Below the pieces are notes generated by a model, which ran no database searches, was not told the DNA's origin, and was given only the letters and a program-made list of their open reading frames with translations. Position numbers and translations under genes: made by a program. A stretch of 53,158 nucleotides of DNA from an uncultured Verrucomicrobiota bacterium (lineage in GTDB: Bacteria; Verrucomicrobiota; Kiritimatiellia; RFP12; UBA3636): contig CAMOSH010000005.1 of NCBI GenBank assembly GCA_946624575.1, forward strand, positions 1 through 53,158, in the 5' to 3' direction. Below, in pieces: positions 1,086 through 43,445 of the stretch (the stretch's first letter is position 1; every line of letters begins with the position of its first letter).

Positions 1086-1740
1086 TTACGCGATATGCTG
1101 TCCCATGGAAGCGTTCAGGATCTTCTCAAACCCCGGAAAATACGGGGCCTTTGGCGGAGATTCATTCGGTTTTGGCGGGGATGCTGTCCCATAGAATCGC
1201 AGCAGTTCCACGGCGTCGTAGTGCAGCCACACCGCCCATCGTATCAGTCCGACAAGGCGCGAATAACTTCCCTTCCACTTCGACAGGTGCTTGAGGTAGC
1301 GAAGGCTGATGCTTCCAGTCGTTGTAGGCCCGGTCTTCCACGACGATGTCCCCGGAACCGAGGTTTCGGCAAAGGTTCGCGGCCTGCGTGATGTCGTGGT
1401 GCTTGGCCTTGTCGACGACGACGCACCGCGGCAGCATGCACGGCACGTCCGTCAGCATGTGCATCTTCACCGCCGCCTTCTTCCTCCGGTGCTTTGCCCA
1501 GTCGATGCAGTTGTGGACGAGACGGATCGTGGAGGAGTCGAGCGCGTAGATGCGCCGGAAGCGGCGCAGTTTCCCGCGTGGCGCCCCGGTGCCGAATGAC
1601 GGATCATGCCGTTGCAGCATGCCGAAGACACTCCAGTACAGCGTCTCGGCCAGTTCCGGGTTTCGTGTCCTGTTGGCATGTGAGAACGTGTTGCGCTTCG
1701 GCGGGACGACCGTCTACACGATCTTCGACAGCCAGGCCGT
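1086..1740 (-). pseudogene. Degenerate IS4-type DDE transposase
   Basis: Read on the minus strand, the frame shows KRNTFSHANRTRNPELAE, then ALDSSTI (first catalytic Asp), WAKHRRKKAAVKMHMLTD (second Asp) and VVEDRAYNDW, all typical of IS4-family DDE transposases. An in-frame TAG interrupts it near 1713 (LSKIV-stop-TVVPP). Near 1310 the reading frame changes: RYLKHLSKWKGSYSRLVGL and a plausible C-terminus ending GFEKILNASMGQHIA are in the next frame. The stretch that should hold the catalytic Glu and the beta-strand insertion is missing, so there is an internal deletion as well as the frameshift and stop. A short direct repeat, ATGCTGTCCCAT, occurs at 1095 and 1191. No intact terminal inverted repeats were found. 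It is inactive. Confidence 0.75.
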
Positions 1741-12396: not shown

Positions 12397-12704
12397 GCGG
12401 TTGGACTTTCGACGGGCTTCAGCCGCCATTTGGCGACGAGCGCCGGGTCGGCGGAATACCGGTCCAGCTGCTCGGCGGCCTCGGCCTTGAGGGCGGCGAG
12501 GTCGGCTGGCGTCGGCTCGGTGTCGCCCGGCTTGAGGTATTTGAGTTCGATGATCGCCGCGTGGGCGATGTCAGGCCACTCAAGGAGGCGGGGTTCGAGC
12601 GCGATGTCGTAGAAGCCGCCGCCGGCTTCGCCTTCATGGTGAACGAAATATGGCCCCGCCGCGCGAGCCTCATTGATATTGATGTTTCTGTCAATGGTGA
12701 TCAT

Positions 12705-12775
12705 TTGGAGTTTTTGTCAATGACACAAATGTCAATTGAGCATCAATGACACAAATGCCAATGTCAATCGGTCAT
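12705..12775. repeat. AT-rich repeat at a deletion junction
   Basis: Short units of the form GACACAAATGTCAATTG and their inverted copies fill this stretch, in sharp contrast to the GC-rich surroundings. It resembles the CACAAATGACAA repeats inside the GH5 and symporter genes but is not the same sequence. It marks the place where the ATPase domain of the flanking pseudogene was lost. Confidence 0.6.
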
Positions 12776-12904
12776 GGCGGATTTCGGCGTAGTCCGATAC
12801 GCCGTAGAGGATGGGGCGGGGTTCTTCCATGGCGTCTCCCTTGTCGTTCACCGCCGCCAATCATAGCAGACGAAAGTCAAAAGTCAAAAGCCGAAAGTTG
12901 AAAA

Positions 12905-13003
12905 CGGAACGCCCGCTTGAAAACCACCATGGCACATGGTATTCTTCGCGCCAACGCCTCGCCTGTTGGCGGGGTATCACCCCAGCCAATTGGGAAAGTT
13001 CTA
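12905..13003 (+). promoter_or_regulatory. Mobile promoter repeat, copy A
   Basis: This is a 99-bp copy of a three-copy repeat. It has TTGAAA at 12917-12922, a 17-nt spacer and TATTCT at 12940-12945. The spacer carries a perfect inverted repeat, ACCATG-gca-CATGGT (12926-12940), ideal for a repressor. The conserved transcribed part has a GGCGGGG-containing stem and ends in TTGGGAAAGTTCTA. It points at the XylR-type regulator starting at 13139. Confidence 0.75.
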
Positions 13004-13093
13004 TTCAAGAAAAAAAGTCTGTGGGGTTTCCTGAACCGCAGGAAATGCTCGAAACCCCTGTATTTTCAATGGTTTTGAAATTTAGGGGATAGT

Positions 13094-13117
13094 TTATCCC
13101 CCAGTTTTGGGGGATAA
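13094..13117. promoter_or_regulatory. 9-bp perfect hairpin in the leader of the XylR-type gene
   Basis: TTATCCCCC (13094-13102), a 6-nt loop and GGGGGATAA (13109-13117) end 21 bp before the start codon. It could be an operator or an mRNA structure that limits translation, as no ribosome site is visible between it and the ATG. Confidence 0.45.
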
Positions 13118-13138
13118 GCCTGCCACAAAGGTGCTCGC

Positions 13139-14374
13139 ATGCCGCATTCATCCGCGCAAATTGGGTGCAAGACGTTTTTCATCCGCGCCGCCGAGACGGC
13201 GCCCGCGATTCTCTACATCGGCTTCGCCCAACGTAGCGGCATGGGTTCCGTGCGGCTCGCCGGCATCCGCCGCTACGCCGCCACGCGGGGGTGGCGCGTC
13301 GAGGTCCTCGGCAACGATGTCTGCTCGCCGGAACCGCTTCGCGACGCCCTTGCGCGGTTCCGTCCCATCGGCTGCGTGGCGGAGTGCTGGTGTCCGGAAA
13401 CGGCGTTGCGTCCAGCCCTCTTCGGGCGCATTCCAGTCGTCTATTTCGAGCCGCCGAACCGTCCGGGATGGCGGAACGCGCGCGGGGTCGTCTGCGCCGA
13501 GGCCGCCGTTGCGCAAATGGCCTTCAAGGAACTCTCCGACGGCCGGCCGGAAGCGTTTGCCGCGCTGTCCTTCTTCAAGGACGAGCGATGGTCGCAGGAA
13601 AGGATCGAGTCCTTCCGCGATTGCTGTCGCAATGCCGGCTTCGACTGTCCGGTTTCGTATTTCAAGGTTGGAAGCTACGAGGAGCTTCCGTCCTGCGTCG
13701 GCGAACTGGTCCCGTGGGCGCGATCACTCCCGTCGCATTGCGCCGTCTTTGCCGTCAACGACTTCTGCGCGCTCGGCGCGGCGAGGGCCCTGGCCGGTGC
13801 CGGGCGCACCTATCCGCGCTCCGTGACGCTCGTCGGCGTGGACGGCGTGGAGATCGATGACAGGGACAAGGCCCTTGCGGCCACGATTTCCACGGTCCGG
13901 CTCGACTTCGAGCTCGCCGGCTTTCTCGCGGCGAAAATGGTCGCAGAAACCGCCGAACAAGGCGGTCCGGCGAAACGCACCGCGTTCTTCCCCCCGCTGA
14001 TGGTGGACCGCCGCAAATCGACGCGGGGCTTCGGGCGCCGCGAACCGCACATTCTCGAGGCCATCGAGATGATCCGGCGCGAGGCGTGCGACGGCCTCAC
14101 TGTCGCGCAGCTTGCCTCCCGTTTCCCGGGCACCCGCCGCCTCTTCGAGTTGCGATTCCGCGAGGCCGCCGGCCATTCCGTGCTCGACGAAATCCTCAAC
14201 GTCCGCCTGGCACGCGCGATGGAACTGCTTTCCGGCACGGACATGCCGGTTTCGGCGATCGCGCACTTCAGCGGGTTTTCCGGCGAATGGGAATTCTGGC
14301 ACTTTTTCCGGAAACGGACCGGGGTGTCGCCGCGAACGTTCCGCAGCGATCGAAGACAGCCTACCGGCCGCTAA
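13139..14374 (+). CDS. XylR-type regulator (sugar-binding domain + AraC HTH)
   Basis: The 411-residue product has a periplasmic-binding/LacI-type sensor domain (about residues 22-300: APAILYIGFAQRSGMGSVRLAG, GRIPVVYFEPPN, CAVFAVNDFCALGAARAL, LVGVDGVEID) and a C-terminal AraC DNA-binding domain (about 310-405: GLTVAQLASRFPGTRRLFEL, then MPVSAIAHFSGFSGEWEFWH). This layout is that of XylR from enteric bacteria, which activates pentose genes, and it lacks the N-terminal HTH of LacI proteins. It lies directly upstream of the GH5 and LamG genes on the same strand and is a candidate regulator for them. Promoter-repeat copy A and a strong hairpin precede it. Confidence 0.85.
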   Translation: MPHSSAQIGCKTFFIRAAETAPAILYIGFAQRSGMGSVRLAGIRRYAATRGWRVEVLGNDVCSPEPLRDALARFRPIGCVAECWCPETALRPALFGRIPVVYFEPPNRPGWRNARGVVCAEAAVAQMAFKELSDGRPEAFAALSFFKDERWSQERIESFRDCCRNAGFDCPVSYFKVGSYEELPSCVGELVPWARSLPSHCAVFAVNDFCALGAARALAGAGRTYPRSVTLVGVDGVEIDDRDKALAATISTVRLDFELAGFLAAKMVAETAEQGGPAKRTAFFPPLMVDRRKSTRGFGRREPHILEAIEMIRREACDGLTVAQLASRFPGTRRLFELRFREAAGHSVLDEILNVRLARAMELLSGTDMPVSAIAHFSGFSGEWEFWHFFRKRTGVSPRTFRSDRRQPTGR

Positions 14375-39812: not shown

Positions 39813-40600
39813 TCAACCCCGGACGCCCGCCCTGCTCGTTACGGCAATTGCGAAAGGCTCGTTTGCGCCGCCACAAGTGGCGATGCGGCGCCAGGCGCGG
39901 GGCGAGAGGCCTGCGTCGCGGCGGAAGAGGTTGGAGAGGTGTTGCGCATGGCAGAAGCCGCACTGGCGGGCGATCTCGCCAAGCGTCATGCAGGACACTG
40001 GAGAGCGGCACGCTTTGGTTTTCGCACATCAGATGGTCGTCGCCGACGCCAAGAACGGCGAACTCCTCCGGCACGGCGACGCCGTGGGCGCGGCAGGCGG
40101 ACAGCGCTATGGCGGCGTCGGAGTCGTCGTAGCAGAAAAGGGCGAGCGGACGCGGCGCGGTGCGGAATTTCTCCGCAAACCAGCGCAAAACGGCGCGCGG
40201 ATCGTCCCAGCGCTTCGTATCGAGGTCTTCCGACAGCACCCAGCGGAAGATGTCGGGGATGCGGCCTCCCGGCCGCGTCACGCGGCTGAAAGCCGCATCC
40301 CCCGGCGGTGGAGCCGCGGGGATGCCCGTCCACGTTTCGCGGAAGCCCATGAAGCGGTCCGCGTGGACCGGCGTCCACTTGGTGGAGAACCAGGCGGCGT
40401 GGCGGTGGTTGCGCTCGATGAAATGCTCGGCGGCGAGGCGACCGATGGCGCGGTTGTCGCCGCAGACGCGGGGGAGTTTGATTTCGGGATGCTCGGCGGT
40501 GAGATCCACGACGGGGATGCCTCGGCGGCGGAGTCGGCGAACGAGTTCGAGAAGCTCCGGTTCGTCGCGCAGCGTGACAAGGGCGCCGTCGCCGCGCCAC
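39813..40600 (-). pseudogene. XylR-type regulator, truncated and internally deleted
   Basis: Read on the minus strand, from about 40600, a sugar-binding domain is clear: ELVRRLRRRGIPVVDLTAEH, DNRAIGRLAAEHFIERNHRH, ADRFMGFRETW, FCYDDSDAAIALSACRAHGV and FAVLGVGDDHLMCENQSVPL, then SSV. Directly after SSV the frame changes into the last part of an AraC domain: MTLGEIARQCGFCHAQHLSN, LFRRDAGLSPRAWRRIA (about 39950-39885). About 90 residues between the two (end of the sensor and first HTH) are missing. The N-terminus is replaced by promoter-repeat copy B. It cannot bind DNA normally. Confidence 0.7.
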
Positions 40601-40730
40601 CCAAACGCAGACCGGGCCGACCGCCAAAAATCGGAACGCCCGATTGAAAACCACAATGGCACATGGTATTCTTCGCGCCAACGCCTCGCCCATTGGCGGG
40701 GTATCACCCCAGTCAATTGGGAAAGTTCTA
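40598..40730 (+). promoter_or_regulatory. Mobile promoter repeat, copy B
   Basis: This 133-bp copy starts ACCCAAACGCAGACCGGGCC and ends GGGAAAGTTCTA. It has TTGAAA at 40644-40649, a 17-nt spacer and TATTCT at 40667-40672. The operator ACAATG-gca-CATGGT has one mismatch. It faces right, away from the regulator remnant, into a region without an intact gene, so it is probably a non-productive insertion that truncated the regulator. Confidence 0.75.
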
Positions 40731-40838: not shown

Positions 40839-40966
40839 CTAGAGCGGTTTCATAAAAAGTGTAGCCTTTTCTGGTATGGACGCGCCCACGGCGCGTCCGC
40901 CATTTCGGACGTTTCGTGGAAACGTCCCTGCTGGAAACGGTTACGAAATAGTTGAAACCGCTCTAG
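40839..40966. mobile_element. 128-bp element with nested hairpins (MITE-like)
   Basis: Perfect 14-bp terminal inverted repeats, CTAGAGCGGTTTCA (40839-40852) and TGAAACCGCTCTAG (40953-40966), enclose two perfect 9-bp hairpins with 3-nt loops: GGACGCGCC-cac-GGCGCGTCC (40878-40898) and GGACGTTTC-gtg-GAAACGTCC (40907-40927). The folded strand would be a three-stem clover. There is no coding capacity. Flanks show no obvious target duplication. It may be a non-autonomous transposon or a structured RNA element. Confidence 0.7.
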
Positions 40967-43150: not shown

Positions 43151-43280
43151 TAGAACTTTCCCAATTGGCTGGGGTGATACCCCGCCAAGGCGGGGAGTTG
43201 GCGCGAAGAATACCATGAGCCATGGTGGTTTTCAATCAGGCGTTCCGATTTTTGGCGGTCGGCCCGGTCTGCGTTTGGGT
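43151..43280 (-). promoter_or_regulatory. Mobile promoter repeat, copy C, driving the GH78 gene
   Basis: On the minus strand it has TTGAAA (43235-43230), a 17-nt spacer and TATTCT (43212-43207). The perfect operator ACCATG-gct-CATGGT (43226-43212) overlaps the spacer. A CCCCGCC-tt-GGCGGGG hairpin follows in the leader and the repeat ends 2 bp before the start codon of the rhamnosidase gene. Confidence 0.8.
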
Positions 43281-43445
43281 GTCGCGGACGCCGCGATGTC
43301 CAGACCGAGCGCCGCGAGCATTAGATCGGAAAAGCCGCCATTTAGGCTGCTTTTCGCGTATTTCTCATATAGCCCGACGGCGTTGGGAAAGTTCTAATAG
43401 AATCTTTGTAGAAATTTGCATAAGTTCCGCATCCCTTTTTTACCG
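43281..43445. other. Intergenic region between divergent genes
   Basis: No gene is seen. TTGGGAAAGTTCTA at 43383-43396 repeats the 3' end of the mobile promoter repeat. A TAGAAT box at 43398-43403 is 42 nt before the plus-strand start at 43446 and may serve it. Confidence 0.5.

Follow-up and report, generated by a model that had tools for sequence, protein, structure and literature searches.

What kind of sequence codes for nothing, folds into a clover and lies between two broken genes? The 128-bp feature that raises this question (40839-40966) was found in a stretch of 53,158 nucleotides (the window), which is contig 5 of a Kiritimatiellae MAG of 3.95 Mb that is 92% complete. The original prediction offered two readings, a MITE whose transposase is elsewhere or a structured RNA. 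We consider it very probable that the clover is a non-autonomous mini-element of the IS630 family (Tc1/mariner-type) with a REP pair as passenger, inserting at CTAG and rebuilding the stop codons located there.

Structure of the element and its family

The element is closed by the predicted perfect 14-bp terminal inverted repeats, CTAGAGCGGTTTCA at 40839-40852 and its exact complement at 40953-40966. Since the terminal-repeat pattern is expected only 0.21 times per window when up to two mismatches are allowed, a chance origin of the perfect inverted pair is ruled out. Two perfect 9-bp hairpins with 3-nt loops are likewise present, GGACGCGCC-CAC-GGCGCGTCC at 40878-40898 and GGACGTTTC-GTG-GAAACGTCC at 40907-40927. 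The DNA fold of the element reaches -38.2 kcal/mol compared to a mean of -17.1 for shuffled sequences (z = -7.3; equalled by 0/200 shuffles) and, as anticipated, the palindrome can form the clover on either strand. The three-stem clover is borne out, but a weaker inner stem, GTAGCC / GGTTAC, which extends each terminal repeat into a 27-bp end, had been overlooked. Similarly, the hairpins had been recognized, but not the GTAG-type tails that turn them into an inverted REP pair.

In the window copy, the left IS630-type end (TAGAGCGGTTTCATAAAAAGTGTAGCC, 27 bp including TA) occupies 40840-40866 on the plus strand, and the right end occupies 40939-40965, reading TAGAGCGGTTTCAACTATTTCGTAACC on the minus strand. 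The core between them, an inverted REP pair (REPIN) at 40873-40931 with 33-nt arms on either side, consists of REP 1 (40873-40898, plus strand), a GGTAT tail followed by the first hairpin, and REP 2 (40907-40931, minus strand), the second hairpin with its GCAG tail. Both tails are degenerate (GTAT and GCAG) compared to other family copies, which carry GGTAG or GGCAG and CTACC. The core of the genus copies is symmetric, with GGTAG plus hairpin on one side, hairpin plus CTACC on the other and arms of 33-36 nt per side, and the shell of the family follows the pattern TAGAGCnnTTT(10)GTAGCC plus its complement. The span of 128 bp is correct for the feature as inserted, C/TA ... TA/G, a context in which nearly all copies are found, but its outer C and G are bases of the CTAG target. 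The true unit runs from TA to TA (40840-40965), and the non-coding element proper, placed between the duplicated TAs by comparison with the empty site discussed below, would comprise 122 bp (40842-40963), in agreement with the predicted lack of coding capacity.

The element is neither single-copy nor devoid of relatives. A genome-wide search returned five full copies in its own genome (G000), and one copy each was found in the sister genomes G001, G002, G006, G007 and G009 of the same genus. When a genome collection was scanned for the end-plus-REP pattern, matches were obtained in named Kiritimatiellae MAGs and in one Methylacidiphilum MAG, while the end pattern alone has 39 matches in 15 of the 162 genomes of the order versus 1 for a reversed-pattern control. 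Two copies at different sites of the own genome (L003 and L004) are 97.7% identical, and this similarity suggests a fairly recent movement. The compensatory changes that had been proposed as a check are present. When ten copies from the genus are aligned, 94% of the alignment cells pair in the clover structure and eight pairs are changed on both sides, a number reached by 0/500 shuffles. Counts of this kind are raised by the relatedness of the copies, but only 0-2 doubly changed pairs are left when the pairing partners are slid by 1-3 columns. Two other details of the copies were observed. L004 and L005 (G000:C116 and C11) both adjoin the same larger repeat with CACAGAGGCAC motifs, near contig ends, and at several loci of G041 (L112, L126, L134, L140) a left IS630-type end precedes about 50 conserved bases, without a right end that can be recognised.

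The neighbours of the window copy are broken indeed, with a regulator remnant similar to periplasmic-binding proteins (PF13377) on the left and a fused remnant on the right. The element does not account for the breakage of the regulator. A separate inverted repeat, about 137 bp in length (40592-40730 / 43151-43287; 94-97% complementarity between arms that are spaced about 2.4 kb), has one of its arms in the same remnant and looks like a different repeat family. At the other side of the window (1162-1620, minus strand), there is a DDE_Tnp_1 transposase fragment (PF01609) without matching ends.

IS630-type ends, the CTAG target and stop codons

The link to IS630 is provided by a metagenomic viral contig of IMG/VR (L221), which is not a Kiritimatiellae genome. 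It contains a 1,006-bp element (12641-13646) with two overlapping ORFs matching HTH_Tnp_IS630 and DDE_3, and its two 27-bp ends are identical to each other at 25/27 positions and fit the end pattern of the family. In addition, the six plasmid relatives of the L221 transposase that were examined (~50% identity), annotated IS630 elements such as ISMno11 among them, have TAGAGC at their left end (6/6). Because the L221 ends bound an IS630 transposase and the plasmid relatives start with TAGAGC, we assign the shell to the IS630-type MITEs. The idea of a MITE with its transposase elsewhere is thereby supported and made specific, namely an IS630-family MITE with TA duplication at CTAG. A search of the own genome yielded no IS630 (DDE_3) transposase; as this MAG is 92% complete, the source transposase may have been lost or may be unassembled. 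Across the genus, DDE_3 gave a single match, in G001, without matching ends, and the IS630 relatives in the order carry other ends, e.g., TATAGCATTTTTC in L237. As another candidate source, IS5/IS4-type DDE_Tnp_1 transposases were rejected, none of the 28 examined loci being flanked by the element's ends.

An empty site was found for one family member, L297 in G008, whereas the flanks of the window copy gave no clear match elsewhere. The convergent gene pair that surrounds L297 lacks the element in the sister genome G007 (L364), where a single CTAG contains the overlapping TAG stops of both genes. Comparison of both sites shows that the one TA within CTAG has become a TA at both element ends, a TA target duplication. 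At some other sites, the left-hand gene also ends at CTAG in relatives without the element. For L019, L122, L124 and L138, the joined flanks correspond to half sites only, the gene that ends at CTAG having a different neighbour in some relatives, and the joined gene ends are not adjacent in the sister species examined. Gene order may thus be influenced by palindromic copies recombining with one another.

We propose the following mechanism. An IS630 transposase would recognize the 27-bp ends and act in trans, and the mini-element inserts at CTAG with duplication of the central TA. Because the element ends start with TAG, the first base after TA being G, insertion into a TAG stop preceded by C rebuilds TAG at both edges. 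A gene ending at CTAG, or two convergent genes with a common CTAG, consequently keep their stops. The inverted GTAG-type REP pair is a passenger riding inside the MITE, presumably with its own, RAYT-type route of spreading.

Placement on stop codons was analyzed for 27 copies, a flank being accepted when it has an open frame that the element's own TAG terminates and whose GC content across codon positions is that of coding DNA. The element supplies the stop of at least one flanking gene in 22 of the 27 copies and both stops of a convergent pair in 11, and no copy (0/27) passes with frames shifted by 1 or 2 bases. Five copies have no gene end, including the window copy, which sits in decayed genes and passes on neither flank (class xx). 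The background was derived from 741 kb of G008, where the 235 CTAG sites outside called elements comprise 6 shared stops, 68 single stops, 155 sites with neither and 6 sites too near a contig end. Double stops occur in 7 of the 10 copies of G008 that are classifiable on both sides, a sample found by family similarity and not random, versus 6 of the 229 classified CTAG sites (Fisher p = 2e-8). The excess persists in comparison with stop-bearing CTAG sites only (p = 4e-5), for which single-stop sites were pooled regardless of the direction of the next gene. Given these ten similarity-found copies and single-stop sites not split by direction, tolerance of insertions between convergent genes is a sufficient explanation, and the double-stop excess probably reflects tolerance rather than targeting. 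More tentatively, the ends of this IS630 lineage could be adapted to stop codons, the element being directed to, or selectively kept at, a CTAG common to convergent stops, splitting them and leaving each gene a transposon-supplied TAG. Overlapping gene ends would then become separate, and the element and its REP cargo would have a safe niche.

The same excess at double-stop sites would be expected from a domesticated gene-end module, kept between convergent genes because each of them gains a stop and both transcripts are terminated or protected by its hairpin. Such a role, which would also agree with stable stems maintained through compensatory change and with the occupation of one site in three sister genomes (L002, L016, L017), is nevertheless improbable: an intrinsic-terminator signature is absent in the window element, L302 and L002 and weak in L300, the five copies without a gene end do not fit, and gene ends are the expected place of best survival for MITEs anyway.

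Shells and REP cores occurring separately

That the REP pair is a passenger in an IS630-type shell is reflected in the separability of both parts, since REP pairs exist outside the shell and the shell can enclose other cores. The REP pair is found without shell at L006, L020, L035, L036 and L038. Conversely, shells of 107 bp (L122, L138 and L289; G007 and G005) have a ACGGAACG palindrome as core and no REP pair, shells of 65 bp in G008 (L277-L283) have a single short GC hairpin instead of the pair, and further shell versions measure 100-105 bp (L285-L287, L291). Shells in Methylacidiphilum and in the order's other families also enclose REP-like pairs close to their centre, with different sequences. 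As a separate observation, the shell-less pair at L006, L038 and L039 seemingly lies within coding sequence, possibly in frame, in a similar context in three genomes.

These exchangeable cores bear upon the view that a REP-associated tyrosine transposase (RAYT) moves all 128 bp as an enlarged REPIN whose outer ends are just a flanking palindrome. This view would agree with the inverted GTAG-type REP pair of the core, with the RAYT genes and their flanking REPs in the genus and order, and with the REP dimers known within longer palindromes of Anabaena variabilis and Halothiobacillus neapolitanus (PMC3733652). Yet the same ends surround REP-less cores and an IS630 transposase and are accompanied by TA duplication, which makes this view very unlikely. 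At the RAYT loci searched, no RAYT is flanked by the REP type of the element (GGTAGGGACG REPs); the RAYT genes L214, L215, L217 and L219 of the order have their own REP types (GAAGCGACA, GCGACGACG, GCACGCCC hairpins) as flanks. The clade thus has several REP/RAYT systems side by side, and at L071 (G000:C217) a RAYT-like Y1 transposase, surrounded by GCGACGACG REPs, is in frame with a pyruvate-formate-lyase-like domain in one ORF (PF02901 + PF01797), which looks like an in-frame insertion. The structured non-coding RNA gene originally considered as an alternative, for which the strong fold and the compensatory changes could be invoked, is hardly credible given an Rfam search in which, with E values up to 1 allowed, no match overlaps the element, a palindrome on both strands, the replacement of the core by unrelated palindromes in relatives and copies at scattered sites, like mobile DNA.

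Comparison with known systems

Insertion at CTAG with a stop rebuilt on both sides offers a simple, testable route to harmlessness for a transposon. Small elements could thereby separate overlapping convergent genes without the loss of either protein. The arrangement also clearly exemplifies how mobile DNA of two unrelated kinds can be nested in one unit, the IS630 MITE and the REP pair each occurring without the other as well, and it bears on the question why REP pairs of other bacteria sit inside longer palindromes. In the literature, which was covered in part, we found no paper on IS630 elements that rebuild stop codons.

ERIC and Correia/NEMIS are palindromic, non-coding repeats of about 100-170 bp inserted at TA, and by description they resemble the element in size, palindromy and TA insertion, but their hosts differ. 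Neither is known to contain a REP core. With IS630-family MITEs and the autonomous ISMno11, the element has the TA target duplication and ends starting with TAGAGC in common, together with the lack of coding capacity in the case of the MITEs. It differs from those MITEs by its REP-pair core and by the documented placement on TAG stops, in many cases on the two stops of convergent genes. With REPINs and GTAG-type REP dimers mobilized by RAYT (PMC3116915, PMC3733652), it shares the inverted hairpin pair, compensated stems and the occurrence of the pair alone, and GTAG tails are seen in other copies of the family; here, however, the pair is enclosed by an IS630-type shell, and the tails of the window copy are degenerate. 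The nesting has its closest parallel in section 7 of PMC3733652, where REP dimers inside long palindromes are described for A. variabilis and H. neapolitanus. These palindromes likewise have a REP pair at their heart, but no REP-less versions of them were found, nor were they attributed to a transposon, whereas in the present family REP-less shells exist and belong to IS630. The MITE and the REP pair are each ordinary; their combination and the documented stop-codon placement are new.
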